From assembly GCA_021775325.1 (NCBI GenBank), contig JAJFID010000253.1, positions 1-37,687 of the forward strand: a stretch of DNA of 37,687 bases, in the 5' to 3' direction. The notes beneath the pieces were generated by a model, which did not search any database, had not been told where the DNA came from, and saw only the letters and a list, made by a program, of their open reading frames with translations. This document shows, piece after piece, positions 2,773 to 32,392 of this stretch. This DNA is from Rhodospirillales bacterium. Its GTDB lineage: Bacteria; Pseudomonadota; Alphaproteobacteria; Rhodospirillales; Casp-alpha2. The position numbers were made by a program, and so were the translations under genes. Positions within the stretch are counted from its first letter, which is position 1. Every line of letters begins with the position of its first letter.

Positions 2773-2775
2773 GGA

Positions 2776-9915: not shown

Positions 9916-11049
9916 ATGTCAGACAAAAAAAGGCCCTTAACCACGCCCAAAAAGGATGTGTCACGTCGCAAGTTCCTTCGTAATGCAACCGTCGCAGGCG
10001 CAGGCGCGGCGGCAACCGCTGTTGCAGCACCGCATGTTGCCAAGGCTGCTACTGTACTGAAAGTTCAGGCAGCATGGGGCGGCGGAATTTTTCTGGAAAA
10101 CGCCAAAAGCTACGTTGACCGTGTTAACAAAATGGCCGGCAGCGGCCTGAAAATCGACCTGTTGTCGGTTAATTCAGTTGTCAAAACCAGCCAGATGCAG
10201 GATGCCGTCCACCGCGGTGTTCTTGATGGTGCCCATTATGTACCAGCTTACTGGTATTCCAAGTCTCCTGCGGCGTCTCTGTTTGGTACCGGCCCGTGTT
10301 TCGGCTGGTCAGCGCAGGAAATGCTCGGCTGGATCCACTATGGCGGCGGCAAGGACCTCTTCAATGAACTGATGGGAACCCTCGGTCTCAATCTGGTCAG
10401 CTTCTTCAACAGCCCCATGCCAGCGCAGCCACTCGGGTGGTTCAAGGAAGAAATTAAAGATTCCAGCCAAATGACAGGCCTGAAGTACCGTACGGTTGGG
10501 CTTGCGGCTGACGTCTTGAACGAAATGGGCATGTCCGTCGTTCAGCTTCCCGGTGGCGAAATTCAGCCCGCCATGAAGAGTGGCCTGATTGATGCAGCCG
10601 AGTTCAACAACCCCACCTCCGACAGTGATTTCGGTATGCAGGATGTATCCAAACATTATCATCTGGCCAGTTTCCACCAGTCCCAGGAATGTTTCGAAGT
10701 CACATTCAACAAGAAAAAATTTGATTCCCTGGCACCAGAACTTCAGAGCATCCTGGAGTACGCGTCAGAAGCCGAAAATTCCAATTTCTACTGGAATAAC
10801 ACGCTTAGTTATGCCGACGATCTGATCAAATTGAAGGAAGAGCATGGTGTCAACGTCTACCGCACACCGGACTCTGTTATGTCCGATCAATTGAAGGCAT
10901 GGGATGTGGTTGTTGACCGGATTTCTGCGGAAGATCCGTTCTTTGCCAAAGTTGTTGCATCGCAGAAAGTTTATGCCAAGAAGGTGATGAACTACCTGCT
11001 TCTGAACCAGCCGGATTACGGCATCGCTTACAAGCACCACTTCGGTTGA
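9916..11049 (+). CDS. dctP: TRAP transporter substrate-binding protein, TakP-like (DctP)
   Basis: The 377-aa product is the periplasmic solute receptor of a tripartite ATP-independent transporter. A Tat-type signal (SRRKFLRN at residues 16-23, then a hydrophobic Ala-rich stretch) ends near VAKA44. The mature part resembles the TakP subgroup, which binds 2-keto acids, lactate and similar carboxylates: the LKYRTVGLAADVLNEMG segment carries the conserved carboxylate-binding Arg (R192), followed by QLPGGEIQPAMKSGLIDAAEFNNP. An AGGGAG ribosome site lies 7 bases before the ATG. It is the first gene of dctP-Q-M, but two inverted repeats separate it from dctQ, which would allow the receptor to be made in excess. 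The ligand is probably a small organic acid; its identity cannot be read from the sequence. Confidence 0.93.
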   Translation: MSDKKRPLTTPKKDVSRRKFLRNATVAGAGAAATAVAAPHVAKAATVLKVQAAWGGGIFLENAKSYVDRVNKMAGSGLKIDLLSVNSVVKTSQMQDAVHRGVLDGAHYVPAYWYSKSPAASLFGTGPCFGWSAQEMLGWIHYGGGKDLFNELMGTLGLNLVSFFNSPMPAQPLGWFKEEIKDSSQMTGLKYRTVGLAADVLNEMGMSVVQLPGGEIQPAMKSGLIDAAEFNNPTSDSDFGMQDVSKHYHLASFHQSQECFEVTFNKKKFDSLAPELQSILEYASEAENSNFYWNNTLSYADDLIKLKEEHGVNVYRTPDSVMSDQLKAWDVVVDRISAEDPFFAKVVASQKVYAKKVMNYLLLNQPDYGIAYKHHFG

Positions 11050-11099
11050 TCTGATCAATCAAGCCTTGCGACACGATGTCGCGGGAACAACCAGTTTTG

Positions 11100-11125
11100 G
11101 AGGGACAGCCCACGGGCTGTCCCTC
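11100..11125 (+). terminator. Intercistronic hairpin between dctP and dctQ
   Basis: GAGGGACAGCC (11100-11110) pairs perfectly with GGCTGTCCCTC (11115-11125) around a four-base CACG loop, 50 bases after the dctP stop. It is G+C rich but is followed by TAGTATCTGG rather than a T-tract. It is better read as a partial terminator or as a hairpin protecting the dctP message than as a full terminator. Confidence 0.7.
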
Positions 11126-11145
11126 TAGTATCTGGTCCGGTTGGT

Positions 11146-11181
11146 AATACCTAACATTTGGTCACTCGTGTGTTAGGTATT
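11146..11181. repeat. Inverted repeat before dctQ (AATACCTAACA / TGTTAGGTATT)
   Basis: Two perfect 11-base arms (11146-11156 and 11171-11181) flank a 14-base spacer, ending 34 bases before the dctQ GTG start. The spacing suits either an RNA hairpin or a two-turn regulator site. It is independent of the hairpin immediately upstream. Confidence 0.6.
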
Positions 11182-11214
11182 GCGTAGCAGGCCCAGAAGG
11201 CGGGAGACCAATCC

Positions 11215-11787
11215 GTGATATCGATTATTCATGCAATTGAAAGTTTAAGCATCTGGGTAGGCCGTGCTTTTGGCTGGTGCATCCTGATTTTGACCTTTTC
11301 GGTCGCTTACGAAGTCTTTGTCCGATATGTGCTCAACTCCCCGACTGTGTGGGTGTTCGACATGATGGTGCAGATGTATGGTGCGCTGTTCCTGATGGCC
11401 GGACCGTACGCGCTGGCGCAGGATACCCACGTGCGGGCCGATGTGATTTACCGGTTCCTGCAACCGCGCGGGCAGGCCAGGCTGGATTTGCTGTTGTATA
11501 TCGTTTTCTTTTTCCCTGGCATGGCTGCCCTGTTCTGGTTTGGTTGGGAAATCGCCTCTGACTCGTGGCGCTACAAGGAAGTTAGCTGGAACAGCCCGGC
11601 CCGAATTCAGGTTTACTACTTTAAAACCCTGATCCCGCTGGCCGGTGCTTTGTTCATTGTACAGGGCGTAGCGGAATGCATGCGCTGCTACCTCGCCATA
11701 AAGACCAATCGGTGGCTACCCCGTCTTGAAGATTCCAGGGAAACTGAAGACCTTCTCAAAGGCCAGGCAACAGGACTCGAAATCTGA
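11215..11787 (+). CDS. dctQ: TRAP transporter small permease DctQ
   Basis: The 190-aa product is the four-helix small membrane subunit of a TRAP transporter, which couples receptor and large subunit. Helices lie at about residues 10-32, 45-65, 85-108 and 128-150. The VRYVLNSPTVWVFDMMVQMYGALFLMAGPYAL segment after helix 1 is typical of the family. The start is GTG at 11215, supported by GGGAGA about 9 bases upstream and by the immediate lead into helix 1. It follows dctP by 165 bases containing two inverted repeats, and precedes dctM by 49 bases. Confidence 0.92.
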   Translation: MISIIHAIESLSIWVGRAFGWCILILTFSVAYEVFVRYVLNSPTVWVFDMMVQMYGALFLMAGPYALAQDTHVRADVIYRFLQPRGQARLDLLLYIVFFFPGMAALFWFGWEIASDSWRYKEVSWNSPARIQVYYFKTLIPLAGALFIVQGVAECMRCYLAIKTNRWLPRLEDSRETEDLLKGQATGLEI

Positions 11788-11836
11788 TGACCTTCCATTC
11801 AGTAACTCAATTTGTTGAGACGGAGAATCCGGCCAG

Positions 11837-13204
11837 ATGACGAACCCCGAAGTAGCAATCCTGATGCTGTCCCTGTTTATTGTGATGGTGTTGTTCGGAT
11901 TTCCGGTCGCCTTCACCCTGCTCGCCATGGGTGTCGGTTTTGGCTATTACGCCTACATGGACGCGGGCAGCATCCAGACCATTGCAGATGCCTTTAGCAA
12001 TAACATTTTTTATCTGCTGAACCAGAACACCTATTCCGTGATGGAAAACGATACGCTGGTTGCCATACCGTTGTTTCTATTTATGGGCTACGTGGTCGAA
12101 AGGGCCAACATCGTCAACAAGCTTTTCTACTCGCTGCAGATGGCAGCGCGTAATTTGCCGGGCTCCATGGCCATTGCAGCGCTGATCACTTGCGCCGTAT
12201 TTTCAACGGCCAGTGGTATCGTTGGCGCGGTTGTAACCCTGATGGGATTACTGGCATTTCCAGCTATGGCCAAGGCCCACTATGACAAGAGTTTTGCGTC
12301 CGGCGTCATCTGCGCCGGTGGCACGCTTGGCATCCTTATACCGCCTTCGATCATGCTGATCGTCTATGCGGCAATTGCTGAATTATCACCGTTGCGCCTG
12401 TATGCGGCGGCCATGCTGCCGGGACTGTTGCTGGCAGGATCGTATATTGTCTATGTTATTGTTCGGGTCATGATTAATCCTTCCATCGCGCCCAAGCCGC
12501 GCGAGGAGGATGTGCCGCCACGCCGTGTTGTTTACTGGCAATTGTTAACCTCATTCGTTCCGCTGACCGCCCTGATCATGCTGGTTCTTGGTTCCATTCT
12601 GGGCGGCCTTGCAACGCCGGCCGAAGCGGCAGCGATGGGCGCGTTTGGCGGACTCATTCTGGCCGGGCTATACCGCTCCCTCAGTTGGGGAATGCTGAAG
12701 GACTCCGTTTATTTGACTGCCAAGGCGACGGCAATGGTCTGTTGGCTGTTTGTTGGTTCCTGGACATTTGCCTCAGTGTTTTCATACCTGGGTGGTCACG
12801 AAATTATCGAGCATTTCATTCTCGGATTTAACCTGGCACCCTGGCAGTTCCTGGTCCTCGTGCAACTCATTATCTTCCTGTTAGGGTGGCCGCTGGAGTG
12901 GTCGGAAATCCTGATCATCTTTGTACCGATCTTCCTGCCCATGCTGGATACCTTTGGCGTGAACCCCTATTTCTTTGCCATGTTGGTGGCGCTTAACCTC
13001 CAAACGTCATTCCTCACGCCGCCTATGGCCATGTCCGCCTACTACCTGAAGGGGGTTTTGGGAAACTTGATCGAATTGATGGATATCTTCAGAGGCATCA
13101 TGCCGTACCTCGCCATCGTGATATCGATCATGGTCCTGATGTATCAGTTCCCCGGAATTGCCTTGTGGTTACCAGACGTTCTGTTCGGTAAATACATCCC
13201 GTAG
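11837..13204 (+). CDS. dctM: TRAP transporter large permease DctM
   Basis: The 455-aa product is the large, ion-coupled transport subunit, with roughly a dozen membrane helices. Family marks are the N-terminal LSLFIVMVLFGFPVAFTLLAMGVGFGYYAYMD, the NDTLVAIPLFLFMGYVVERANIVNKLFYS segment, the ICAGGTLGILIPPSIMLIVYAAIAELS segment (an ion- and substrate-site region), and the closing LNLQTSFLTPPMAMSAYYLKGV. A GGAGA ribosome site stands about 8 bases before the ATG. A further small membrane-protein gene starts 35 bases downstream. Confidence 0.95.
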   Translation: MTNPEVAILMLSLFIVMVLFGFPVAFTLLAMGVGFGYYAYMDAGSIQTIADAFSNNIFYLLNQNTYSVMENDTLVAIPLFLFMGYVVERANIVNKLFYSLQMAARNLPGSMAIAALITCAVFSTASGIVGAVVTLMGLLAFPAMAKAHYDKSFASGVICAGGTLGILIPPSIMLIVYAAIAELSPLRLYAAAMLPGLLLAGSYIVYVIVRVMINPSIAPKPREEDVPPRRVVYWQLLTSFVPLTALIMLVLGSILGGLATPAEAAAMGAFGGLILAGLYRSLSWGMLKDSVYLTAKATAMVCWLFVGSWTFASVFSYLGGHEIIEHFILGFNLAPWQFLVLVQLIIFLLGWPLEWSEILIIFVPIFLPMLDTFGVNPYFFAMLVALNLQTSFLTPPMAMSAYYLKGVLGNLIELMDIFRGIMPYLAIVISIMVLMYQFPGIALWLPDVLFGKYIP

Positions 13205-13239
13205 GAACTGCGCGACCTGAATAATGGAGTACACAAACC

Positions 13240-13440
13240 ATGTCACCAGAACTCATTGAAAAACTTTCCGCCTTAACCGGGACCTTTTTGGTTTCTGTGT
13301 TTGTTCTCGGATTGGCCTATAGCATATCCACTGGTGCGGCCGGTTTTTGGGGCGGCCTTCCGTTCTGGGTAATCTGCTTCGGTATACTGCCACTGATCCT
13401 TTTTGATTTCTGGGATACATGTTACCGCAAGAAGCCCTGA
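13240..13440 (+). CDS. 66-aa two-helix membrane protein in the TRAP operon
   Basis: I do not recognise a named family. The 66-residue product has two predicted membrane helices (about residues 13-32 and 36-55, the second running FWVICFGILPLILFDFW) and a short basic tail ending in RKKP. A GGAG ribosome site lies about 14 bases before the ATG; that spacing is long. It starts 35 bases after dctM on the same strand and ends 61 bases before the chosen start of amidase 1. Its size and place suggest an accessory subunit of the transporter or a membrane microprotein, but this is inference only. Confidence 0.7.
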   Translation: MSPELIEKLSALTGTFLVSVFVLGLAYSISTGAAGFWGGLPFWVICFGILPLILFDFWDTCYRKKP

Positions 13441-13501
13441 TGAATTTACCGCCAGCAACTATAAAAAATACATTATCCGGCGAAGACAGGACCTGCTGCG
13501 C

Positions 13502-14827
13502 ATGTCATTGATCGAATTGTCTGCTACCGACGCCGTTGAAAAGATACGCAACGGCGAAATTACATCGGAAGAGCTGGTCCAGGCCTGCCTCGAAAGAATC
13601 GATCAGGTGGACGGCGATGTCCAGGCATGGGCACACCTGAAACCTGAGTATGCCCTTGAACAGGCGCGCCAACTGGATCAACGGAGGAGTGCGGGCGGCC
13701 CAATGGGCCTGCTTCACGGCATTCCGGTTGGTATAAAGGATATTTGCGACACCAAACTGTTGCCGACTGAAAACGGTACAGTCCTTGATTCAGGCCGTCT
13801 ACCCATGGAAGACAGCCGTGTCGTCAGCCTGCTTCGGGAAGCTGGCGCGGTCATCATGGGTAAAACCGTGACGACGGAACTCGCCGTGTATGGACCGGGC
13901 AAAACCCGAAATCCGCACAACACCGAACATACACCGGGGGGCTCGTCCAGCGGCTCGGCGGCGGCGGTCGCATCCTACATGGTGCCACTGGCCATCGGCA
14001 GCCAAACCAACGGGTCCATCATTCGTCCTGCGTCCTATTGCGGTGTTGTCGGTTTCAAGCCAACCCACGGATTGATTCCCAGATCGGGCGTCCTTTGCCA
14101 GTCACCGCCGCTTGACACCATTGGAACATTCGCGCGCGGCCTCGAAGACATTGCATTGATATCCGAGGTGCTCGTGGCTTACGACCCGGACGACCGGCAC
14201 ACCGTCGTTAGGGCACGCCCGCCGCTCAGGGACGTATTGGCCACCGAGCCGCCCATGCGGCCTATGGTCGCTTTCGCCAGAACTGCTGTGTGGGACCAGG
14301 CGGACGACGCAACGCAGGAAGCGTTTGAGGAACTCGTTGAGGTCCTGGGTGATGACTGCAGTGACCTGCCACTGTCAGAACCATTCAACGGCCTTGTCGG
14401 TATGCACCGCAATATTATGTACGCCGATCTTGCGAAAAATTTCTCCCACTACTACAAGCGTGGAAAGGACCAGCTAACCGACACACTCTGTGAGATGATC
14501 GAGGCGGGTCAAAAGGTTAGCGCCGTTGATTACAATACGGCAATTGACGGCCAAGCCCTGCTCAATGCCGGCCTGGACCTTGTGTTTGAGCACTATGACA
14601 TGATTATTACACCTGCAACGACGGGCGAAGCACCACTTGGTCTGGATGCAACGGGCAGCCCTGTCTTCAATACTCTGGCAACCTACTGCGGTGTTCCAGC
14701 CGTCACTCTGCCGCTTATGGACGGCCCGAACGGCCTCCCCCTTGGTGTCCAGGTTATCGGTCCTCGTGGCGACGATGCCCGGTTGCTGCGCAACGCCAAA
14801 TGGCTTATGCAGCGGGTATTGGGTTGA
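13502..14827 (+). CDS. Amidase-signature family amidase 1
   Basis: The 441-aa product is an amidase-signature hydrolase, which cleaves carboxamides to acid plus ammonia through a Ser-cisSer-Lys triad. The triad is K79 (in PVGIKDICDT), S148 (first Ser of GGSSSGS) and S172 (in SQTNGSIIRPA). The spacing (69 and 24 residues) matches malonamidase E2. The region around the triad (TPGGSSSGSAAAV, then IIRPASYCGVVGFKP) is typical of that branch. One oddity is Asn in QTNGS where most members, including the paralogue downstream, have Gly. I chose ATG 13502 because the frame upstream of it overlaps the preceding gene and the family N-terminus (MSLIELSATDAVEKI) begins here; an in-frame upstream ATG at 13403 is unlikely. 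It is followed 36 bases later by amidase 2. Confidence 0.93.
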   Translation: MSLIELSATDAVEKIRNGEITSEELVQACLERIDQVDGDVQAWAHLKPEYALEQARQLDQRRSAGGPMGLLHGIPVGIKDICDTKLLPTENGTVLDSGRLPMEDSRVVSLLREAGAVIMGKTVTTELAVYGPGKTRNPHNTEHTPGGSSSGSAAAVASYMVPLAIGSQTNGSIIRPASYCGVVGFKPTHGLIPRSGVLCQSPPLDTIGTFARGLEDIALISEVLVAYDPDDRHTVVRARPPLRDVLATEPPMRPMVAFARTAVWDQADDATQEAFEELVEVLGDDCSDLPLSEPFNGLVGMHRNIMYADLAKNFSHYYKRGKDQLTDTLCEMIEAGQKVSAVDYNTAIDGQALLNAGLDLVFEHYDMIITPATTGEAPLGLDATGSPVFNTLATYCGVPAVTLPLMDGPNGLPLGVQVIGPRGDDARLLRNAKWLMQRVLG

Positions 14828-14863
14828 TCCGCCTGACCGGGTGAAACGAGCGGGAATACTGAT

Positions 14864-16204
14864 ATGTTCAAGAGTCGCATGGGTCTGTGCAAGATGAGCC
14901 TGGCCGAAGGTGTCGAAACTGTCCGTAGCGGAAAATTTCAAGCTGTTGATTTTGTAAAAAGCTGCCTGTCAAGAATCGACGACAAAGAGGTCGAGATTGG
15001 CGCATGGGCTTACCTGAACGAGGTCGCGGCCCTGGAGGCCGCAGAATCCCGTGACAGTTATAATCAGCAGGGAGCCTCACTGGGTGCGCTTCATGGCATG
15101 CCTATCGGTATCAAGGATATTATTGATACCGCCTACATGCCGACCGAGTATGGATCAACGCTCTATGCCGGACGCCTTCCTAAAACCGACGCTGTGGTCA
15201 TCGAACGCCTCCGCCTTGCCGGTGCTGTCATCATGGGCAAGACTGTAACGGCGGAACTGGCGAACTGTGGTCCTGGCAAGACTCGTAATCCCCACAATCC
15301 TGATCATACCCCGGGTGGATCCTCAAGTGGATCGGCGGCCGCAGTGGCATCTTTCATGGTACCGGGTGCGTTGGGCACACAAACCGGTGGCTCGGTCATT
15401 CGACCGGCATCTTATTGTGGTGTTTACGGCTTCAAGCCTACATATGGCCTGATTCCGCGCACCGGTGTATTGATGCAATCCTTTTCCCATGACCAGATCG
15501 GCACGTTTGCCCGAACTGTCGAGGACATTGCCATGTTGACCGAAGTGCTGATCGGGCCAGACGTCGGTGACGATGCGACCACCACCCTCAAAGCGCCAGT
15601 AAAGCTCTCGGACATTGCCACGTCCGAGCCGCCAGCGAGCGTCAGACTGGCCTTTGCCCGGACACCTATGTGGGAACATGCCGAACCAGCAACGCAAACC
15701 ATCTTCGAGAACCTGCGCGAGACACTTGCTGATCATGCGGATGAGGTGGACCTGCCCGATGCCTTCAACAACCTCATGGCATGGCACCGGACTGTCGTCG
15801 AAGCGGAATGCGCCGAAGCCTACATCAAGGAGTATGAAGCGGGTGAAGGATATATCCATGCGGACCTGCGCGCGCAGATCGAACGCGGACGTGATATCCG
15901 GGCCGCCGATTTTATTGCCGCGCTCAAGAAACGCACATATCTGAATGCCCTGCTGGACGAAACTTTTGACACATACGACGCCATTCTGACGCCTGCCGCA
16001 ACGGGTGAGGCCCCCGAGGGGCTGGAGAGCACCGGCGATCCGGTGTTTTGCTCGACATGGAGTTTCTGCGGCACCCCTGCTATTTCCCTGCCGTTGTTAG
16101 AGGGTGAAACGGGCCTGCCGATCGGCGTTCAGCTTGTCGGTCGCTGGGGTGATGATGCCCGCCTGCTCAGAACCGCCAACTGGTTAGCCAACAAACCGGC
16201 GTGA
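14864..16204 (+). CDS. Amidase-signature family amidase 2 (paralogue of amidase 1)
   Basis: The 446-aa product is a second amidase-signature enzyme, clearly a paralogue of amidase 1: the core around the triad is nearly the same (KTRNPHN, TPGGSSSGSAAAV, then RPASYCGVYGFKP). The triad is K84, S153 and S177, with the usual GTQTGGSVIRPA context. The region after residue 230 differs more, which suggests different substrates. The ATG at 14864 has a GCGGGAA site about 8 bases upstream. ATG 14879 (residue 6) would give the same N-terminal length as amidase 1 and is an alternative. It ends 8 bases from the stop of the convergent hydrolase gene. Confidence 0.93.
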   Translation: MFKSRMGLCKMSLAEGVETVRSGKFQAVDFVKSCLSRIDDKEVEIGAWAYLNEVAALEAAESRDSYNQQGASLGALHGMPIGIKDIIDTAYMPTEYGSTLYAGRLPKTDAVVIERLRLAGAVIMGKTVTAELANCGPGKTRNPHNPDHTPGGSSSGSAAAVASFMVPGALGTQTGGSVIRPASYCGVYGFKPTYGLIPRTGVLMQSFSHDQIGTFARTVEDIAMLTEVLIGPDVGDDATTTLKAPVKLSDIATSEPPASVRLAFARTPMWEHAEPATQTIFENLRETLADHADEVDLPDAFNNLMAWHRTVVEAECAEAYIKEYEAGEGYIHADLRAQIERGRDIRAADFIAALKKRTYLNALLDETFDTYDAILTPAATGEAPEGLESTGDPVFCSTWSFCGTPAISLPLLEGETGLPIGVQLVGRWGDDARLLRTANWLANKPA

Positions 16205-16212
16205 CGAGAAAC

Positions 16213-16989
16213 CTAACCCGTGTGCTTTAGCAAAAAATCGCGCACGGGCGGCCCGACCCGCTCCGGCCCCTCAATGAGGATGGAGTGTTTGATGTTATCC
16301 AGAATAACCAGTTCAGAATCCGGCAATAGTTCCGCCATGAACATGTTATGGCGCGGGCTGCAGGCGCCGTCCAGTTCGCCCGTTAGCACCAGACAGGGAC
16401 ACGCTACCTCGTGTAGCCAGGGGGCCATTTCAGTTTCCGCATAAATATGAAAAACGCTGAGGAAAACGTCATCGGGTGTGTCATTAACCTGCTTGATGCG
16501 CGTCTCGATCAGATCGGGACGGGCGGCAATAAATTCATCCGTATACCAGCGCGCGACCAGTGTGCTGAGTACGGGTACAATCCCCTGCTCCTCCATAGCG
16601 GAAATTACGCCCTGTAATTTGGCCCGGTCTTCATCTGTACGACCGGCTGCCGTGCTGAGCAGTCCCACACTGAGTGTGCGGTTCGGGTGGGCATGGGCAT
16701 AAGCAGGACCAATCATGCCACCCAGTGAGTGACCGACCACGTGAATCTGCTCATGTCCCAGTTTCGCGCGCAGCGCTTCCAGGTCTTCTACCAGTTGAGT
16801 CAACGTATAAGGCACCGGCGGCACGGGGCTTTCGCCATGGCCACGCAAATCATAACTGACGCAGGTAAAATGATCGCGCAGAACGGGGATGATGCCATCC
16901 CAGGTTATTTTGCGCGACCCGATCCCGTGTACCATGTAGAGCGGTGGCCCCGCCCCTTCGATCCGGTATGAAACGTCTACCGCAACCAT
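16213..16989 (-). CDS. Alpha/beta-fold hydrolase (3-oxoadipate enol-lactonase-like)
   Basis: The 258-aa product is a standard alpha/beta hydrolase. The HG oxyanion motif is at residues 21-22 (MVHGIGS), the nucleophile elbow GHSLGG contains S88, and the acid and base are D207 (GELDGACSP) and H235 (NIKHSIL). The compact length and the DLRGHGES segment resemble the PcaD-like branch, which opens lactones such as 3-oxoadipate enol-lactone, but related enzymes cleave esters or C-C bonds. It lies 3 bases downstream of the 4-OT-like gene, which itself follows the flavin oxidoreductase by 20 bases, so the three form one operon. Its likely role is a hydrolytic step on the product of the first two enzymes. 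Confidence 0.9.
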   Translation of the reverse strand: MVAVDVSYRIEGAGPPLYMVHGIGSRKITWDGIIPVLRDHFTCVSYDLRGHGESPVPPVPYTLTQLVEDLEALRAKLGHEQIHVVGHSLGGMIGPAYAHAHPNRTLSVGLLSTAAGRTDEDRAKLQGVISAMEEQGIVPVLSTLVARWYTDEFIAARPDLIETRIKQVNDTPDDVFLSVFHIYAETEMAPWLHEVACPCLVLTGELDGACSPRHNMFMAELLPDSELVILDNIKHSILIEGPERVGPPVRDFLLKHTG

Positions 16990-16992
16990 CGT

Positions 16993-17187
16993 CTAGTCTG
17001 GATACTTATCAATGGCATGAACACCGCCGATACCCACGTCTTCTTTTTCGAACTCATTGATGAAAATGTAGATACCATCCGGTTTACCACCAACGGCGCG
17101 CACATAACCCTCGGTCAGTTCCTTGACGAGAGCTTTTTTTTGCTCGCGGGTTTTTCCGGCGAGCATCTCAACATTGATAGAGGGCAT
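16993..17187 (-). CDS. 4-oxalocrotonate tautomerase-like protein
   Basis: The 64-aa product is a tautomerase-superfamily subunit. Family members move a proton between carbon atoms of enol and keto acids using the amino-terminal proline left after Met removal. Here Pro follows the start Met directly, and EQKKALVKELTEG and the GIGG segment fit the classic 4-OT fold. Counting from Pro1, position 11 is Lys and position 39 is Tyr, where classic 4-OT has catalytic Arg at both. This suggests a different substrate or reaction. An AAAGGAT ribosome site precedes the ATG. It sits between a luciferase-like oxidoreductase and an alpha/beta hydrolase in one operon, in line with a ring or enol intermediate being isomerised. 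Confidence 0.88.
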   Translation of the reverse strand: MPSINVEMLAGKTREQKKALVKELTEGYVRAVGGKPDGIYIFINEFEKEDVGIGGVHAIDKYPD

Positions 17188-17207
17188 TCAAATATCCTTT
17201 TCGCGTA

Positions 17208-18245
17208 TTAAACGATGGCCAGCTTCGCTGGCGCTGTTTGAAAACGAGGCATGACGTCACTGGCAAAACGTTGCATGGATTCAAGTGTTTCCGCCTGTGA
17301 TTCACCAATATTGAAATTAAAGATGACTTCGTCAATGCCGATATCATCATAGGTGGACAAGCGGTCAGCCATTTCGTCAGGTGGGCAGATCAGCAGGTTC
17401 TTTTCCAGCTCCTCTATGGTCTGTTCCCTGGGTAACGCCTCGATACAGCCATTTTTGACAATGCCCGGTCCCGTAAAGACGTTGTCGAAACGGGAGTAAT
17501 AATCGTAGGCCAGTTCCAACTTTTCTCTGGCATCTTTCTCGTTGCGGGCGCAATAGCCGACTCGCGATAACAAAATTCTGAGATCGGCACCGGTCACGCC
17601 CATTTCCGTCTTGGCGTTTTTATGCGCCATGACCTGATTCCGAAACACTTCGGGTGTTGCCGACAACGGTGTGGTCTGAATACTGAACCCGCGTCTGGTA
17701 CAGGCCTCAATCGCCTTTTCGTGCAGCGCCGCTATCATAATGGGCAGAGGACGCACGGGTCTGGGCATGATGGTTATGGGGTCGAAATTATAATATGTAC
17801 CTTGCCAGGAGACTTCTTCTTCGCTCAGCAATGCCAGCAGAACATTGAGAGACTCATCAAACTTCTCCCGCGTGTCTTCAATCGGTACGCCCATGCGGGC
17901 TGTCTCATAGGCAAATGCGCCGCGCCCCACACCGAGTATCAGGCGCTCATCGGTCAGAATATCCGCCTGCACGATCTCGCCTGCAAAAACACGCATGTCA
18001 TGCAGCGGCAGGACGACCACGGATGTGGTAATCTCCACGTGTTCGGTTACCGCCGCAACCTTGACCGCCATCTGTAGCGGTGATGGGGTAATCAACACAT
18101 TGATCAGGTGGTGCTCAGGGATGGTAACACCCCGATAACCAAGTTTTTCAGCCAAAATTGCCTGCTCCACCATGTCGGCATAAAGCCGCCTCCCGCCATA
18201 TGCGGGATCAGGGTAATAGCTGGATAAGAAGTGATTGAAATCCAT
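17208..18245 (-). CDS. LLM-class (luciferase-like) flavin-dependent oxidoreductase
   Basis: The 345-aa product is a bacterial-luciferase-like TIM-barrel protein that uses reduced FMN or F420. The barrel is recognisable from the YYPDPAYGG and AEKLGYRGVTIPEHHL segments, the strand TTSVVVLPLHDMRVFAGEIVQADILTDERLILGVGRGAF, and the PRPVRPLPIMIAA stretch. Because the organism looks alphaproteobacterial, FMN is the likelier cofactor. Family members open N-heterocycles, cleave C-S bonds or oxidise long-chain substrates. Here it is the first gene of an operon with a tautomerase and a hydrolase, suggesting it performs the initial oxygenation. An AGGAG ribosome site is 9 bases before the ATG. It is divergent from the LysR gene, which probably controls it. 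No flavin reductase is adjacent. Confidence 0.9.
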   Translation of the reverse strand: MDFNHFLSSYYPDPAYGGRRLYADMVEQAILAEKLGYRGVTIPEHHLINVLITPSPLQMAVKVAAVTEHVEITTSVVVLPLHDMRVFAGEIVQADILTDERLILGVGRGAFAYETARMGVPIEDTREKFDESLNVLLALLSEEEVSWQGTYYNFDPITIMPRPVRPLPIMIAALHEKAIEACTRRGFSIQTTPLSATPEVFRNQVMAHKNAKTEMGVTGADLRILLSRVGYCARNEKDAREKLELAYDYYSRFDNVFTGPGIVKNGCIEALPREQTIEELEKNLLICPPDEMADRLSTYDDIGIDEVIFNFNIGESQAETLESMQRFASDVMPRFQTAPAKLAIV

Positions 18246-19209: not shown

Positions 19210-20189
19210 AAATCCCTTGTGGGATTAACCATCGCCAGCGGGTGCGCCGATTCCACCAGTGACTTGAGCCGTTCATCCAGCACGTGGGTATAGATCTGTG
19301 TGGTCGATACGTCAGAGTGCCCTAACATTTGCTGCAGTGAACGCAGGTCGGCACCATGCGCCAGCATGTGGCTGGCGAAAGAATGGCGTAGTACGTGTGG
19401 GGATACCTTGCGCGGGTCCAGTCCGGCACGGACGGCCAGTTCTTTCATGAGTTGGCCAAACCGGGCACGGGTGAGATAGCCACCCTTACCTCGCGAAGGA
19501 AACAGAAAACTGCTGGCTAGTCCCGCACGTCCTTTTGGAAGGAATCCCTCGCGGACCTCCCTATAGGCCTCAATCGCGTCCATTGCAGGCTCACTCAGCG
19601 GCACCATGCGTTCTTTGCCACCCTTGCCACGAACAATCAGCATGCGTCCGTCACCGGTCACAGCCGAGAGCGGAAGACCGACCAGTTCTGTTACGCGCAG
19701 GCCAGTGGCGTACAGGACTTCAAGCAAAGCGACCAGACGAAGACCGTCACGTCCTTCGTAGTTTTCTGCCGCTACCAGCAGCGCGTCCACATCGTCCTCG
19801 CTCAGGTACTTGGGCAGGCTCTTACCGACCACGGGACTGTCGACGGCATCTACCGGATTATCTGTGCGAATGCCTTCAGCAAACAGAAATCGAAAAAACA
19901 TTCGGATGGATGACAGATGTCGCGCCGCCGTTCGTGAAGACATCCCCCTTGACGACAACTCTTTCAGATAAGCCTTTATCACGCGGGTATCAGCATCCTC
20001 CGGCAACTTTCGACGCGCCGTCGCAAAGTCGGCAAATTGCACCAGGTCTCGCTCGTATGACTCGATTGTATTGTTGCTTGAATTGCGCTCGACCATAAGC
20101 ATTTCCAGATAGGCATCGATCCAGCGCCGGGAAGGATTTCGACGTGAGCGGGTCGCCCCATCGTTGTCATCGCCCCGCTGCCTGTTCAC
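19206..20189 (-). CDS. xerD: Tyrosine recombinase XerD
   Basis: XerD, with XerC, resolves chromosome dimers at dif. The 327-aa product has the SAM-like N-terminal core-binding domain (residues 22-110) and the catalytic domain with all residues visible: R165 (ATGLRVTEL), K189 (GKGGKE), H265 and R268 (HVLRHSFASH), H291 (LGHSDVSTTQIY) and Y300. The sequence fits XerD better than a phage integrase. The start is GTG at 20189, overlapping the stop of the upstream 624-aa gene as GTGA, which implies translational coupling; the N-terminal 20 residues are basic and longer than usual. It converges on the LysR gene with overlapping stops. Confidence 0.92.
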   Translation of the reverse strand: MNRQRGDDNDGATRSRRNPSRRWIDAYLEMLMVERNSSNNTIESYERDLVQFADFATARRKLPEDADTRVIKAYLKELSSRGMSSRTAARHLSSIRMFFRFLFAEGIRTDNPVDAVDSPVVGKSLPKYLSEDDVDALLVAAENYEGRDGLRLVALLEVLYATGLRVTELVGLPLSAVTGDGRMLIVRGKGGKERMVPLSEPAMDAIEAYREVREGFLPKGRAGLASSFLFPSRGKGGYLTRARFGQLMKELAVRAGLDPRKVSPHVLRHSFASHMLAHGADLRSLQQMLGHSDVSTTQIYTHVLDERLKSLVESAHPLAMVNPTRDF

Positions 20190-22060
20190 AGTCCACCTGC
20201 GATAGCCGCTTCGATGGCCAGTGTCCGGGCTTCCTGATACAGCCCTGTTGCGCTGAGGCTACGAACCACATGCCCCATGGTTATGGAATCCACCATGCCC
20301 GGGCCGCCATCGCCCAGCACCAGTGAAGCCAGCAAAACCGTTTCACCAACACGACCACCATTGGACGAGGCGGCCAGCCTGTACCAGAGTGCCGGGTCGG
20401 GCAGCGCCCGCGGTTCCCGGGCATCTTCAAATCCCAGAATTTCCCAGGAACCGGGGTCGACAGGTTCGCCCAGGTTATCGAGCAACGAGAACAACAAAGC
20501 GGCGCGTTGGCGCCATCCGTCCTGCACGCCAGCGGTGATGAGCCAGTCTCCCAAACCGACCTGAGAGGGAAGTCCGTCACTTTGCAGGCTCGCGAGACGG
20601 ACAATCGGTATTAACGAAGTCAGTGCGTCCAAGGCGTCAACTGACCGTGTTGCATTCAGCTCCAGCATCTTTAACCAGCCTTGGGCAGCATTGGCATTTC
20701 CTGTCAGCACGAAAGCCCGAACGGCATCGCCTGCGAACCAGATCAGATCGGACCGCGGTGCCACACCCGCAATGATGTCGAGAAACGCATCCGCTGTAGA
20801 TGCATATCGATCATCCCGCCGAGCTATCTCAAGCGCCAATGCTGCCGCCTCAGCCTTGGCACCGTGAACGGTTTGCTGACGTGCCGCCTGATAAAGCAAG
20901 GCCCGCGCCATAGGGCCATCCAGTGTCTCTGCCGTACTGATAGGACTTTCCAGCTCGTCTGTGGTGAACGGCACACTGAGATAGAGATTGCGATGGTCCT
21001 GTACAGGTAAAGCCGCCGATGCAGCCGCCAGTTCACCGGCTTCCAGCCGTGTGGCGATATCCAGATCCTGATTTGATGCAATTGCGGCCAGAATAACAGG
21101 TGACGGCACATCAACGGCATCCTCGGCGAGGCGGGCATTGCTGGAGCGAAGGACAGCCATGTGCAATGGCGACTGGTCACTCAATGAGTTCAGCACCGGA
21201 GTTTCACCCCGGATCATGGAATCCAGCATCAGCAGAAGCGTATCTTCCTCCGCTCCCAGTTCCCGCATGAGTGCCAGCCCCAAGTCAGCCTCCGCAGATG
21301 CTCCGGCCAAAATCTGGCAGAAAATGAATAGCTTCTGCCAATAATCACCGCCGCCCTCACTGACCACGCTGCTGGCCGTACCACATGCTTCGACAAATTT
21401 GCCGCCATTCAGTGCAACCTCGGATTCAATGCGGAGCAGTCGTTCATTGGCGTTGCGGCCAGGCGTAACGGCAAGCAATTCTCGCGCGGCAGCCACTTCA
21501 CCCATGGCCGATAGCACTTCCAGGCGGTGGGCTATAAAATCACCTTCTCCCGTTGTATTGTCCGGCAGTGCCGCTTCACTGATAAGTAAACGTCGCATGA
21601 CACGACGCAATGCCGGTGACGTCGTACTGACCGGCAATCGATCCATCAGATCATAAACGGTTTCATATCGCGTGCCCCGCCACACACTGTAGGGAAGGCC
21701 GCCTTCCTGTTCGGTCAGCAATCCGACAGAGTCCGCAGTCACCACCGTCAGTTGGTCGATCTCAATTGAGTTATCGCCGCTTCCGACACTACCGACAGGT
21801 TGATCGCTTGGTGTCCACTTGTCCTCATTTGTCCCGGAAGGCGGCACCAGTTCCACATCATCAAGGACCAGAGGTTCCAGCGATTGTGGCGCTACATCAG
21901 CAGGCTGATCTGTAACTGGAGGCGCGATTGGTTGGCCGTCCGGATCGGTCAGCACAGTTTGCCCCGACGCGTGATGCGAGAAGATCGTCAAAATCACGAC
22001 AAGAGCCGACAAGATTTTCGGCGGCCGGCTCAGCCAGGCACTAGCCCGGAAAATTGTCAT
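20186..22060 (-). CDS. Exported 624-aa alphaproteobacterial protein of unknown function
   Basis: I do not know its function. The N-terminus is a signal peptide or anchor (basic residues, then a hydrophobic stretch near residues 16-29, with a possible cleavage region around SHHASGQ). A Pro/Asp-rich linker follows (to about residue 100). The rest is a long alpha-helical, Ala- and Leu-rich region with helical-hairpin character like degenerate TPR or Sel1 repeats (for example EVLSAMGEVAAARELLAV, GNANAAQGWLKML, LYQEARTLAIEAAI). As I recall, proteins of this kind, sometimes mislabelled antifreeze glycopeptide polyprotein, sit between xerD and a small membrane-protein gene near aroK in other Rhodospirillales. 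That context suggests a cell-envelope role. Its start overlaps the 46-aa gene by 20 bases and its stop overlaps xerD. Confidence 0.8.
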   Translation of the reverse strand: MTIFRASAWLSRPPKILSALVVILTIFSHHASGQTVLTDPDGQPIAPPVTDQPADVAPQSLEPLVLDDVELVPPSGTNEDKWTPSDQPVGSVGSGDNSIEIDQLTVVTADSVGLLTEQEGGLPYSVWRGTRYETVYDLMDRLPVSTTSPALRRVMRRLLISEAALPDNTTGEGDFIAHRLEVLSAMGEVAAARELLAVTPGRNANERLLRIESEVALNGGKFVEACGTASSVVSEGGGDYWQKLFIFCQILAGASAEADLGLALMRELGAEEDTLLLMLDSMIRGETPVLNSLSDQSPLHMAVLRSSNARLAEDAVDVPSPVILAAIASNQDLDIATRLEAGELAAASAALPVQDHRNLYLSVPFTTDELESPISTAETLDGPMARALLYQAARQQTVHGAKAEAAALALEIARRDDRYASTADAFLDIIAGVAPRSDLIWFAGDAVRAFVLTGNANAAQGWLKMLELNATRSVDALDALTSLIPIVRLASLQSDGLPSQVGLGDWLITAGVQDGWRQRAALLFSLLDNLGEPVDPGSWEILGFEDAREPRALPDPALWYRLAASSNGGRVGETVLLASLVLGDGGPGMVDSITMGHVVRSLSATGLYQEARTLAIEAAIAGGL

Positions 22061-28048: not shown

Positions 28049-28062
28049 GGGGCGTTAGCCCC
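28049..28062. terminator. Possible bidirectional hairpin between the J-domain and TetR genes
   Basis: GGGGC (28049-28053) and GCCCC (28058-28062) flank a GTTA loop which includes most of the TetR stop codon. The convergent genes are only 23 bases apart. No T-tract follows on either strand, so termination is only a suggestion. Confidence 0.3.
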
Positions 28063-28666
28063 GCAATCCCGCAACAATCGTTGATACGGACCGTTTTATC
28101 CGGGCCTCTACCCAGGCCCACGGGTGTTCCCGGGCGATTTGTTGGTGAAACACAGCCATACTGATATCCGATAGCAGGTCTACAGTCGCAGAAACGTCGA
28201 TATTTGTTGAGATATCACCCCGGCTCTGCAGTACGCCCAGTAGCTGCGCAACAGGCTCGTCAAACACCCGGTTGTTCAGTTTGTCCAGGGCTGGCTGATA
28301 CTCGCCCGCGGCCCGAATGCCCGTCGCCACGACCTCACGCCAGAGCGAATTGTCCAGATAGTCAAATCCGTTCTGGAGCTCAGCCAGAATCATGGCGCTG
28401 ATCGCATCAGCGGCATCACTTGGTGGGTTGCTGATAATCGCGTTCTTGTCGGTTTCGATTACTGCCCTGTCGGCTTCATAAATGGCGACAATCAGATCCG
28501 CCTTGGCCGGATAATACGCATACACGGTCGGCACAGATACGCCAGCTTTACGGGCGATATCGTCCATGGCTGTTGCCGCGTAACCACGTTCAGCAAACAA
28601 CGTCGCTGCTGCCTTGAAAATAGCGCTGCGACGCTCCGCTTTCTGACGCTCACGTAGTGTACTCAT
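28055..28666 (-). CDS. TetR-family transcriptional regulator
   Basis: The 203-aa product has the N-terminal TetR helix-turn-helix (residues 12-57: AIFKAAATLFAERGYAATAMDDIARKAGVSVPTVYAYYPAKADLI) and an all-helical ligand domain ending in SVSTIVAGLRG. It is divergent from the flavoprotein and methyltransferase genes with a 93-base gap that holds two overlapping palindromes, so it very probably represses them and itself. The ligand is unknown; a methylated amine or its product is the natural guess. Confidence 0.93.
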   Translation of the reverse strand: MSTLRERQKAERRSAIFKAAATLFAERGYAATAMDDIARKAGVSVPTVYAYYPAKADLIVAIYEADRAVIETDKNAIISNPPSDAADAISAMILAELQNGFDYLDNSLWREVVATGIRAAGEYQPALDKLNNRVFDEPVAQLLGVLQSRGDISTNIDVSATVDLLSDISMAVFHQQIAREHPWAWVEARIKRSVSTIVAGLRG

Positions 28667-28759: not shown

Positions 28760-30796
28760 ATGGCGAGAGACCCCAGACACGATATCCTTTTCGAGCCTGT
28801 CAAAATTGGCCCTGTTACAGCCAAGAACCGTTTTTATCAGGTGCCGCACTGTACCGGCATGGGGTACGCCATGCCCGAAACCGTTGCGGCCATGCGCGAA
28901 ACCAAGGCCCAGGGTGGGTGGGCTGTCATCAATACAGAATACTGTTCCATTCATCCATCCAGTGACGATGGACCGTTTGCCTTCTGCACACTATGGGACA
29001 ATGACGACATACGGAACATGGCGCACATGAGTGAGACCGTGCACCGCCATGATTCGCTTGCGGGCGTAGAGTTATGGCACGGCGGCATGCATTCCAATAA
29101 CCGAACCACGCGCATGTCCCCTATTTCCGTATCGGGAGAACCCCTGATCCACATGGGGCCCATTCAGTCCCGGGCTATGGACAAGACCGACATCCGTAAC
29201 CTGGTCCGCTGGCAGGCCGATGCGGCCAGACGGGCCCGTGAAGCCGACTTCGATGTGGTTTACGTTTACGTGGGCCACGACTACCTGCCCTTCCAGTTCC
29301 TGTCACCGCGTCACAATCAACGTACGGACGAGTACGGCGGTTCACTGGAAAACCGTACACGCCTGATCCGGGAGATGATTGACGCCACGCGCGATGCTGT
29401 CGGCGACAGGTGCGCCGTTGCGATCCGGTTTGCCGTGGACGAGTTAATGGGACCCCAGGGCATCACCTGTGACGAGGAGGGCCGGGCCGTTATCGAACTT
29501 CTGGCCGAGTTACCCGATCTGTGGGATGTCAATGTAAGCGGCGTTGCCAACGATTCCAAAAGTGCCCGGTTCTCTGATGAAGGGTTTCAGGAAGAATACA
29601 TATCATTCGTGAAATCCGTCACCACCAAGCCCGTCGTCGGTGTCGGTCGGTACACCAGTCCTGACCGCATGGCCGGTCTGGTCAAAAAAGGCATTCTGGA
29701 TTTCATCGGAGCCGCCCGCCCATCCATAGCAGACCCATTCCTGCCCCGAAAGATTGAAGAAGGGCGCAGCGATGAAATCCGCGAATGCATCGGCTGTAAT
29801 ATCTGCCGGTCCGGCAACAACGAAGGTACTCCAATTCGCTGCACCCAGAACCCTACCATGGGTGAAGAATGGCGTCGCGGATGGCATCCGGAAAACATCG
29901 ATCCAAAAGGTTCTGATGATCAAATTCTGGTAATCGGTGGCGGTCCTGCTGGCCTTGAGTGTGCTCGTGCGGCTGGCCAGCGTGGATACAACGTTGTCCT
30001 CGCCGAAGCATCAACTGAACTGGGCGGTCGTATCAACAGGGATTGCCGCCTGCCCGGACTATCCACCTGGGCGCGGGTGCGCGACTGGCGCACGGGACGT
30101 CTCAATCAGATGCCCAATGTGGACATTTATCTGGATAGCGCGCTCACCGCAGACGACGTGGCAGAATTCGATGCACAGCAGGTGATTGTCGCGACCGGTG
30201 CCCGCTGGCGACGCGATGGCCTTGGTGCATACACCCCGTTTGGTATTGAGAACATTGAACAGGCCTGCGCTGTAACGCCTGATGATATCCTCATAGACGG
30301 GATAGAACCGGAGGGGCCGGTTCTGATTTACGATGATGATCACTATTACATGGGCGGGGCGCTGGCGGAGCAGCTACGGGCAACCGGCCTCGACGTCACG
30401 CTGGTCACACCGGCCTCCTACGCGTCGGCATGGACCGAGATGACCGAAGAGTTGGAATTTGTTCAGGCCCGCCTGCTGGGGCTCGGCGTTACACTGATCA
30501 CACAGCACTACATGGCTGGTGTTAAGGATGGGACGGCCCGTCTGGCGTGCCGGTTCACACATCGTGAAACCCTACAGGGTTTCGGTAGTCTGATACTGGT
30601 GACAGCGCGCACCCCGGTCGACAGCCTTTATTCAGAACTCGTGGGCCGTGGCATGGGCAACGTACACCGGATCGGGGACTGCGAAACGCCTGGCTCACTA
30701 GTGCACGCCATCCACGCCGGTCATCGTCTGGCCCGTGAACTGGATAACGCACCTGATCCTGACATGCCATTCCGCCGCGAACGGGTCGTCGTCTGA
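28760..30796 (+). CDS. Trimethylamine-dehydrogenase-like FMN/4Fe-4S oxidoreductase
   Basis: The 678-aa product is an Old Yellow Enzyme-type TIM barrel fused to an iron-sulfur and two nucleotide-binding domains. Its N-terminus (MARDP-HDILFEP) and whole layout match trimethylamine dehydrogenase (TMADH). C31 is the Cys that carries covalent FMN in TMADH (Cys30 there), Y61 equals Tyr60, and Y170 and H173 equal Tyr169 and His172. The 4Fe-4S ligands are C343, C346, C349 and C361. The ADP-binding GGGPAG is at 393-398. However, the residues aligned with the substrate-bowl Trp264 and Trp355 are not Trp: the first falls in a shortened VANDSKSARF loop, the second is Asn353. Hence trimethylamine is unlikely to be the substrate; another N-methyl compound is more likely. 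It is followed 39 bases later by an MttB-family gene and is probably repressed by the divergent TetR. TMADH numbering is from memory. Confidence 0.93.
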   Translation: MARDPRHDILFEPVKIGPVTAKNRFYQVPHCTGMGYAMPETVAAMRETKAQGGWAVINTEYCSIHPSSDDGPFAFCTLWDNDDIRNMAHMSETVHRHDSLAGVELWHGGMHSNNRTTRMSPISVSGEPLIHMGPIQSRAMDKTDIRNLVRWQADAARRAREADFDVVYVYVGHDYLPFQFLSPRHNQRTDEYGGSLENRTRLIREMIDATRDAVGDRCAVAIRFAVDELMGPQGITCDEEGRAVIELLAELPDLWDVNVSGVANDSKSARFSDEGFQEEYISFVKSVTTKPVVGVGRYTSPDRMAGLVKKGILDFIGAARPSIADPFLPRKIEEGRSDEIRECIGCNICRSGNNEGTPIRCTQNPTMGEEWRRGWHPENIDPKGSDDQILVIGGGPAGLECARAAGQRGYNVVLAEASTELGGRINRDCRLPGLSTWARVRDWRTGRLNQMPNVDIYLDSALTADDVAEFDAQQVIVATGARWRRDGLGAYTPFGIENIEQACAVTPDDILIDGIEPEGPVLIYDDDHYYMGGALAEQLRATGLDVTLVTPASYASAWTEMTEELEFVQARLLGLGVTLITQHYMAGVKDGTARLACRFTHRETLQGFGSLILVTARTPVDSLYSELVGRGMGNVHRIGDCETPGSLVHAIHAGHRLARELDNAPDPDMPFRRERVVV

Positions 30797-30835: not shown

Positions 30836-32392
30836 ATGAGCATCGAAACCAGTGCACGCCCGGCGCGTCAGCGTCGCCGAGGCGGTGGTGGCACCGCCAG
30901 AACAGTCGGTGCAATTCAACAACGACCGTGGGCGGAGGTATCGAACCCCTACGCGCCGACGGAAATCATCAATGCTGAACGAATTGAGGATATTCACACG
31001 GCGTCGTTGCGCGTGCTTAGTGAACTGGGAGTCGAAGTCCTGCATGCGCCCCTGCGTCAGACCCTGTCAAAAGCCGGCGCCGAAGTCGACGGTGATCGCG
31101 TGCGGCTTGACCCAGCCATGGTTGAGGAGAAAGTCGAACTTGCACCCGATTCTGTCACCTTGCACGCCAGAAATCCGGCCCGTAATGTTACGCTGAAAGA
31201 GGGCAATATCGCGTTCTGCTCCACGGGTGGCCCCGCGTTTTCCACCGATCTGGACCGTGGCAGACGTGCCGCAACGTTTGAGGACATGAAGGACTTCACC
31301 CGTCTTGTACACATGTTGAATGTGATCCATCTGGAAGGCGGCGGGGCTGTGGAACCAACGGACCTGCCTGTGGAAAACCGTCATCTCGATATGTACCGGG
31401 CGTTTATTACACTGACGGACAAAGTCTGGACGGGATACGGCCTGGGCACGCAACGCGCCAATGACGCCATTGATCTGGCGGCAATAGTACTGGGCACTGA
31501 CCGGGGTGGATTGGCGGAACGACCAGGAGCGCTGACGGTCATCAATTCGAACTCGCCCTTGCGGGTGGATGGCCCCATGTCCGAAGGTCTGACCGCCTTC
31601 GCGCTTGCGGCCCAGCCCTTTGCCGCCACCCCATTCACCCTCTCGGGTGCCATGGCACCGGCGACCATCGGCGGTGCACTGGTGCAGCAAAACGCGGAAG
31701 CCCTGGCCATGATAACCATGGCCCAATGTGTCCGGGCAGGCGCGCCTGTCATTTATGGCGGTTTTACCAGCAATGTAGATATGAAAACCGGCGCACCGGC
31801 GTTTGGTACGCCTGAGTACTCGCAGGCCGTTCTGATCGGCTGCCAGCTCGCCCGCCGGTACGGCGTGCCCTACCGCAGCAGTAACGTGACCTCGTGCAAT
31901 ACGGTCGATGCGCAGGCCGCCTATGAAAGCGCCATGTCCCTGTGGCCAGCCTGTATGGGTCAGGCCAATATTATCAAACATGCTGCGGGTTGGCTGGAGG
32001 GCGGTCTCACGGCCAGCTTCGAGAAATTCATCCTGGATGCCGAGATGTTACAGATGATGTCGGCATTCATGGTACCGCCGGCCATCGATGAAGACGCTTT
32101 TGGATTCGAGGCCATGGCGGAAGTTGGTCCCGGCGGTCATTTTTTCGGCACCAGCCACACCCTGGAACGGTATGAGAATGCGTTCTACCAGCCGATTCTG
32201 TCTGACTGGCGTAATTTCGAGACTTGGCAGGAGTCCGACAGCCCCACTGCCGCCCAACACGCCAATCGCATCTGGAAGCAGTTGTTATCCGAATACGAAG
32301 AGCCCGCTATTGACCCGGCCGTTCTGGAAGAAGTGGATGCATTCATCGCGCGCCGCAAGGAGGAACTTAAAGTAACAGGTGTAGACTCATGA
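30836..32392 (+). CDS. MttB-family (trimethylamine methyltransferase family) protein, non-pyrrolysine
   Basis: The 518-aa product belongs to the MttB superfamily, TIM-barrel enzymes that in anaerobes pass a methyl group from trimethylamine (pyrrolysine-containing MttB) or from glycine betaine, carnitine or proline betaine (non-pyrrolysine members) to a corrinoid protein. The reading frame is open throughout without an internal TAG, so this is a non-pyrrolysine member. Recognisable are IEDIHTASLRVLSELGVEVLH, the FSTGGPAFSTDLDRGRR-like segment and NVTSCNTVDAQAAYESAMSLWPA with EGGLTASFEKFILDAE. GGAGA precedes the ATG. A basic N-terminal stretch (residues 8-18, rich in Arg and Gly) is unusual. 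No corrinoid protein or corrinoid:H4folate methyltransferase is adjacent, so the acceptor is unknown. It is the second gene of the flavoprotein operon and converges on ydbL, 26 bases away. Confidence 0.9.
   Translation: MSIETSARPARQRRRGGGGTARTVGAIQQRPWAEVSNPYAPTEIINAERIEDIHTASLRVLSELGVEVLHAPLRQTLSKAGAEVDGDRVRLDPAMVEEKVELAPDSVTLHARNPARNVTLKEGNIAFCSTGGPAFSTDLDRGRRAATFEDMKDFTRLVHMLNVIHLEGGGAVEPTDLPVENRHLDMYRAFITLTDKVWTGYGLGTQRANDAIDLAAIVLGTDRGGLAERPGALTVINSNSPLRVDGPMSEGLTAFALAAQPFAATPFTLSGAMAPATIGGALVQQNAEALAMITMAQCVRAGAPVIYGGFTSNVDMKTGAPAFGTPEYSQAVLIGCQLARRYGVPYRSSNVTSCNTVDAQAAYESAMSLWPACMGQANIIKHAAGWLEGGLTASFEKFILDAEMLQMMSAFMVPPAIDEDAFGFEAMAEVGPGGHFFGTSHTLERYENAFYQPILSDWRNFETWQESDSPTAAQHANRIWKQLLSEYEEPAIDPAVLEEVDAFIARRKEELKVTGVDS

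Follow-up and report, generated by a model that had tools for sequence, protein, structure and literature searches.

The closest described relatives of the protein studied here belong to the family of iron-sulfur flavoproteins that includes trimethylamine dehydrogenase (TMADH) and histamine dehydrogenase (HADH). In TMADH, C30 is the site of 6-S-cysteinyl FMN attachment, and Y60, W264, W355 and S74 line the substrate cage, the bowl residues of HADH presumably playing the same role. A second superfamily, MttB, is also relevant to this locus. Those of its non-pyrrolysine members with an established function remove a methyl group from glycine betaine, proline betaine, carnitine or butyrobetaine, and pyrrolysine is present in the trimethylamine-specific MttB (PMC8604678). 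In the MtgBCD system of Ruegeria pomeroyi, one corrinoid hub serves betaine demethylation together with methionine synthesis; corrinoid systems require reductive reactivation, and DUF1638 has been linked to the reactivation of cobalamin (PMC12478193).

We analysed a stretch of DNA of 37,687 nucleotides, hereafter the window. An initial annotation had described the gene at 28760-30796 as a TMADH-like flavoprotein that keeps covalent FMN and the [4Fe-4S] cluster, and loses two tryptophans of the aromatic bowl, and had proposed that it oxidises another N-methylated substrate. The features of the locus are the following.

28055..28666, minus strand: TetR-family regulator (Pfam TetR_N), divergent, 93 bp upstream of the flavoprotein gene
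28760..30796, plus strand: TMADH/HADH-type iron-sulfur flavoprotein, 678 amino acids, complete open reading frame (Pfam, PDB matches, AlphaFold/Foldseek)
28850..28852, plus strand: codon of C31, the equivalent of TMADH C30, read in the translation
29543..29554, plus strand: codons of residues 262-265 (VAND), in which V262 aligns with TMADH W264 and D265 with catalytic D267
29786..29842, plus strand: [4Fe-4S] segment C343-x2-C346-x2-C349-R350-...-N353-N354-E355-...-C361, holding the clade-specific Arg350 and Asn353
30836..32392, plus strand: non-pyrrolysine MttB-superfamily methyltransferase, 518 amino acids (Pfam MTTB), 39 bp downstream of the flavoprotein gene

Pfam recognised an Oxidored_FMN domain (263 bits) and a pyridine-nucleotide-disulphide oxidoreductase domain in the flavoprotein, and NCBIfam returned no subfamily name for it. 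When compared over its full length with solved structures using phmmer, it scored 705 bits with HADH 3k30, 672 with HADH 6de6, 652 with 6l6j and 578 with TMADH 1djn. Its AlphaFold model, made from 39 sequences, had a mean pLDDT of 91.9 and matched 3k30, 2tmd and 6l6j in Foldseek with TM-scores of 0.97, 0.96 and 0.94, respectively. Membership of the TMADH/HADH/Pno family is thus established by both the full-length sequence and the fold. C31, Y61, Y170, H173, C343, C346, C349, C361 and N353 were all found in the translation under the numbers first given to them. The four cluster cysteines, C343, C346, C349 and C361, fit the pattern C-x2-C-x2-C-x11/12-C and are invariant in 39 aligned sequences. 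The catalytic residues Tyr169, His172 and Asp267 of TMADH correspond in the alignment to Y170, H173 and D265. With C31 in place, FMN is likely to be covalently bound in this protein. The claim does not extend to its clade, since the equivalent residue is Ala in 10 of the 17 members, as it also is in Pno; covalent FMN was thus rejected as a clade feature and stays outside the clade definition.

The substrate pocket was examined in an alignment of 107 family rows and four solved proteins. W264 of TMADH lies in the motif GDIAEWGED, whose counterpart in the flavoprotein, SGVAND, contains no Trp, as the initial annotation had reported. The shortening of this loop, reported at the same time, amounts to three residues and is general: it is also found in HADH and Pno, and since both nevertheless keep the Trp, its loss, and not the shortening, is what sets the flavoprotein apart. 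W355, in the motif CISRWEIGG, aligns with CRSGNNEG. Because of a one-residue gap its partner may be N353 or N354, N353 being the residue that aligns with the Asp of CVSGDLT in HADH. The second tryptophan is thus absent as well, but this absence is ordinary: Trp at the 355 site is confined to TMADH, and HADH, Pno and about 100 sequence relatives do without it, mostly carrying Asp. Position 355 was therefore discarded as a special loss. As for position 264, it was W, Y or F in all 86 relatives of the first sample without an adjacent MttB gene, as against L, V, P or S in 16 of the 19 rows with one. Judged from these alignments, 264 is the informative position and 355 distinguishes little within the wider family.

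The rest of the TMADH wall is largely recognisable. Y60, W105 and Y174 are kept (Y61, W106 and Y175) and the YLP motif matches exactly. Neither V262 nor N353 is aromatic, but Ser74 of TMADH is replaced by the aromatic F75. Owing to these four residues an aromatic wall remains, so that the cage is only partly lost and the pocket has been rebuilt, not simply stripped. Could the protein then simply be a trimethylamine or dimethylamine dehydrogenase of the usual kind whose cage has drifted, and in which F75 might provide a replacement aromatic contact? The exact matches at Y61, W106, Y175 and YLP point that way. We nevertheless consider it highly unlikely, as both cage tryptophans are gone, the polar and positive substitutions are conserved in the clade instead of drifting (R350 in 17 of 17), and the partner MttB is non-pyrrolysine, whereas the trimethylamine-specific MttB has pyrrolysine (PMC8604678).

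Compared with the Tyr60/Trp264/Trp355 bowl of TMADH proper, the flavoprotein retains only Tyr61; in place of the Gln/Trp/Asp of HADH proper it has Y61, V262 and N353. By these residues it is a member of the TMADH/HADH family that is neither TMADH proper nor HADH proper. The acidic residues typical of HADH-like relatives, Glu or Gln at 60, Glu at 74 and Asp at the 355 site, are absent. In the AlphaFold model R350 and N353 both lie in helix 348-355, Arg350 coming three residues before N353, one helical turn from the position of Trp355 in TMADH, and helix periodicity predicts that its side chain faces the pocket.

The gene downstream, 30836-32392, matched PF06253 (MTTB) with 623 bits, and the nearest solved proteins to its product are 4yyc and the glycine betaine methyltransferase MtgB (9yce/2qne). 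Its reading frame is open, with no in-frame stop or amber codon, and the enzyme is therefore not of the pyrrolysine type; its substrate is probably a betaine-like quaternary amine. The order and orientation of the TetR, flavoprotein and MttB genes are conserved in locus L069, where the flavoprotein is 71% and the MttB protein 73% identical. Pfam scans revealed no further gene common to all the neighbourhoods of L043, L010, L012, L009, L034, L073, L032 and L044. Elsewhere in the window, positions 9916-18245 encode a TRAP transporter (DctP/Q/M), two amidases, an alpha/beta hydrolase and a luciferase-like monooxygenase, which looks like a separate catabolic cluster. A 624-residue open reading frame (20186-22060, minus strand), located between a phage-integrase-family (XerD-like) recombinase and shikimate kinase, had no match in NCBIfam or Pfam.

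An MttB gene of the same type lay directly downstream of the flavoprotein gene in 14 of the 80 loci recovered. In a first tree, built without the columns around 264, 355, 30 and 60, a single 20-row group (SH-aLRT 95) contained 18 of the 19 MttB-adjacent rows. A more careful tree, with additional genomes and without the two longest branches, gave a 25-row clade (support 99/92) that holds all 23 coupled rows tested and, nested among them, the uncoupled loci L044 and L078. Few columns separate the coupled clade from its relatives, namely R350, N353, E355, H111, Q152, S268 and two more. Arg at the R350 position is present in 17 of 17 clade members versus 0 of 85 relatives, and Asn at the N353 position in 15 of 17 versus 9 of 85, Asp being found in 69 of the 85. 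Position 264 is L, V or P in the clade, except for Tyr in two members, and W, Y or F in all 85 relatives outside it. None of the 17 core members departs from Y170, H173 and D265. In a second, independent draw, which comprised 385 genomes from this class, 29 loci were examined. All six that have R350 (one of them identical to L069) stand beside MttB, and among the 23 without R350 one adjoins an MttB gene, a more distant one (Fisher p ~1e-5, related rows not being independent events).

The uncoupled loci L044 (6001-8061) and L078 (5941-8061) have no MttB neighbour and neither R350 nor N353, so that partner gene and residue suite are absent together. They have Tyr at 264, Ala for Cys30 and Met for His172, which makes theirs another type of pocket. 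There are exceptions: L149 (Fuscovulum) is coupled to MttB without R350 and has a strongly altered pocket (A60, M172, S264, I352), L029 stands beside a distant MttB without R350, and L019 and L025 are coupled and have R350, yet carry Tyr at 264. R350 is therefore the residue that tracks the pairing best, though imperfectly. Because the association lies within one clade, pairing and residues may reflect joint inheritance more than repeated adaptation.

These results bear on the idea that the flavoprotein is a dehydrogenase of the HADH/Pno type whose substrate is a primary or secondary amine, cationic and of larger size, with MttB serving a different or parallel step. The substrate amine of HADH is no N-methyl donor, which counts against an N-demethylase reading. 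HADH and Pno, and not TMADH, are moreover the closest solved relatives by sequence and by fold, and the amine that Pno oxidises is a secondary N-methylamine within a long side chain (PMC7688666). We find this reading unlikely all the same: the clade has lost the Glu/Gln at 60, the Glu at 74 and the Asp at the 355 site and has gained an Arg, the wrong charge for a dicationic amine, and the linkage to MttB is tight and near-exclusive.

In several alphaproteobacteria a CocE/NonD (S15) hydrolase gene was found beside the flavoprotein-MttB pair, at the following loci.

L145, 15602-23729: CocE/NonD (S15) hydrolase beside the pair
L149, 13473-21436: CocE/NonD (S15) hydrolase beside the pair
L015, L019, L025 and L027: CocE/NonD (S15) hydrolase beside the pair

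The hydrolase is linked in 6 of 19 coupled loci versus 0 of 64 others. An oligopeptide-type ABC transporter also stands beside the pair in some loci, and the window has neither gene. In the members that have them, the amine may therefore arrive as an ester or amide. In L073, a DUF3419 gene (BtaA-like betaine lipid synthesis, 1909-3279) lies about 3 kb upstream of the coupled pair, possibly by coincidence.

The MttB proteins of the pairs form one subfamily in the tree (support 100). The same subfamily adjoins DAO-GCV_T genes on plasmids of Leisingera, Alisedimentitalea and Parasedimentitalea and on contig C112 of the window's own genome; the protein at the swapped slot has 800 residues and is built like dimethylglycine dehydrogenase. 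N-demethylases of two unrelated kinds thus occupy one slot, which is the strongest pointer to a flavoprotein that oxidises the product of MttB. The window's genome (loci L090-L109, L152 and L159-L178) has 17 long MttB genes, of which 7 have a DAO-GCV_T or TMADH-family gene no more than about 3.5 kb away. If 28 such genes were placed at random, 0.8 close pairs would be expected on average, and seven or more in about 4 per 100,000. The pattern is a general one in this genome: the seven contigs concerned come first below, followed by three with a DAO or GCV_T protein nearby.

C172 (window), C29, C184, C112, C323, C287 and C76: MttB close to a TMADH-family or DAO-GCV_T gene
C355, C222 and C68: MttB close to a DAO or GCV_T protein

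This 4-Mb assembly encodes at least 17 long MttB proteins, 13 FAO_M (DAO-GCV_T) proteins, about 15 TMADH-family proteins and a single B12-binding_2 corrinoid protein; the 17 long MttB genes compare with up to seven paralogues per genome reported previously (PMC12478193). One corrinoid hub may thus serve many methyltransferases in this genome. The corrinoid protein, whose nearest NCBIfam family is MtgC (below cut-off), is encoded on contig C340. Its neighbours there include DUF1638, a pterin-binding protein, etfA and etfB, the gene set used for glycine betaine demethylation in R. pomeroyi (PMC12478193), and also a DAO-GCV_T protein. A corrinoid protein is available in the genome, and it is the putative partner of the MttB protein at 30836-32392. 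No ETF-quinone oxidoreductase was found in the window genome, possibly because the assembly is only 89% complete.

The tight pairing with a corrinoid-dependent enzyme, the flavin and [4Fe-4S] centres and the need of corrinoid systems for reductive reactivation (PMC12478193) would all suit a redox partner of MttB or its corrinoid protein, one that for example re-reduces inactive Co(II) corrinoid and oxidises no amine. Such a role is very improbable in our opinion. The residues for amine oxidation, Y170, H173 and D265, are kept in 17 of 17 core members, DUF1638, with its link to cobalamin reactivation (PMC12478193), is already present on C340, and DAO-GCV_T N-demethylases fill the same slot.

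We think instead that the flavoprotein is probably a tertiary-amine dehydrogenase (N-demethylase) that acts after MttB in a demethylation cassette made up of the two genes. By analogy with its family, MttB would transfer a single methyl group of a quaternary amine first to the corrinoid protein and then to tetrahydrofolate, leaving a tertiary (dimethyl) amine. The flavoprotein, as its conserved catalytic residues suggest, would then oxidise a remaining N-methyl group at FMN by means of Tyr170, His173 and Asp265; electrons would pass from FMN to the [4Fe-4S] cluster and on to ETF, and hydrolysis of the iminium would yield the secondary amine and formaldehyde. The lack of acidic pocket residues, the gain of Arg350 and the non-aromatic position 264 suit a larger, carboxylate-bearing substrate better than trimethylamine. 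Such a substrate could be the dimethylamino product of a betaine, its carboxylate perhaps bound by Arg350. The initial annotation had proposed a bulkier or anionic compound, a betaine or methylated amino acid; the coupling to MttB, the exchange with DAO-GCV_T, the clade Arg and the loss of acidic residues partly support that substrate class.

A broader and more tentative reading, which may well not hold, is that a TMADH-type lineage and one MttB subfamily have evolved together as a two-step system dedicated to taking N-methyl groups off betaine-type acids. Some substrates would then enter as esters or amides through the oligopeptide-type transporter and the CocE/S15 hydrolase, and the charge of Arg350, by attracting the substrate carboxylate, would stand in for part of the cation-pi recognition. 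Many TMADH-like and MttB-like genes of marine and soil bacteria have no known substrate, and an altered pocket that goes with a particular methyltransferase links two such unknowns as a single reaction pair that can be tested. R350, N353 and a non-aromatic 264 offer a sequence marker for recognising the pair. The exchange of partners also shows that, after a common first step, unrelated N-demethylases can take each other's place in bacteria, which bears on the aerobic bacterial turnover of quaternary nitrogen osmolytes.

In the literature searched we found no description of a rebuilt-pocket flavoprotein clade with a fixed pairing to one MttB subfamily. The best fold match is HADH (Nocardioides simplex 3k30 and Rhizobium sp. 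4-9 6de6; TM 0.97, 46-49% identity in the fold alignment), which shares C31, Y170/H173/D265, the [4Fe-4S] cysteines and the short 264 loop with the flavoprotein, but has Q60, Trp264, Asp at the 355 site and Glu74 where the latter has Y61, V262, N353 and F75 in addition to R350. We know of no MttB link for HADH. TMADH (1djn/2tmd; TM 0.96) shares Y60, W105, Y174, the YLP motif, the cofactor ligands and the catalytic triad; the flavoprotein differs from it by the loss of W264 and W355, an identity of about 41% and its MttB gene neighbour. 6-Hydroxypseudooxynicotine dehydrogenase (Pno/HisD, 6l6j; TM 0.94) is similar in its short loop and is linked to ETF; it has Ala at C30, Glu at 60 and Trp at 264 and acts on a nicotine intermediate. 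The 6l6j entry is described as the 6-HPON amine oxidase of Pseudomonas geniculata N1, a relative of the Pno whose FMN is reported as non-covalent (PMC7688666); the same would be expected of those members of the flavoprotein's clade that have Ala at C30. DgcA and StcD, which demethylate dimethylglycine and N-methylproline, resemble the flavoprotein in the probable N-demethylation of a methylated amino acid, but the sole TMADH-family match on Sinorhizobium meliloti pSymB is 28% identical and belongs to a distant branch. We take this gene to be stcD, which lies on pSymB. At 28%, against 46-49% for HADH, DgcA/StcD were rejected as closest kin; DUF3483 (the DgcB-like family) had no match anywhere and is hence uninformative about a DgcA/StcD identity. 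The likeness to MtgBCD, which demethylates glycine betaine in marine bacteria, concerns the system as a whole: an MttB-superfamily enzyme, corrinoid and pterin proteins, and genes for the later demethylations often nearby (PMC12478193).
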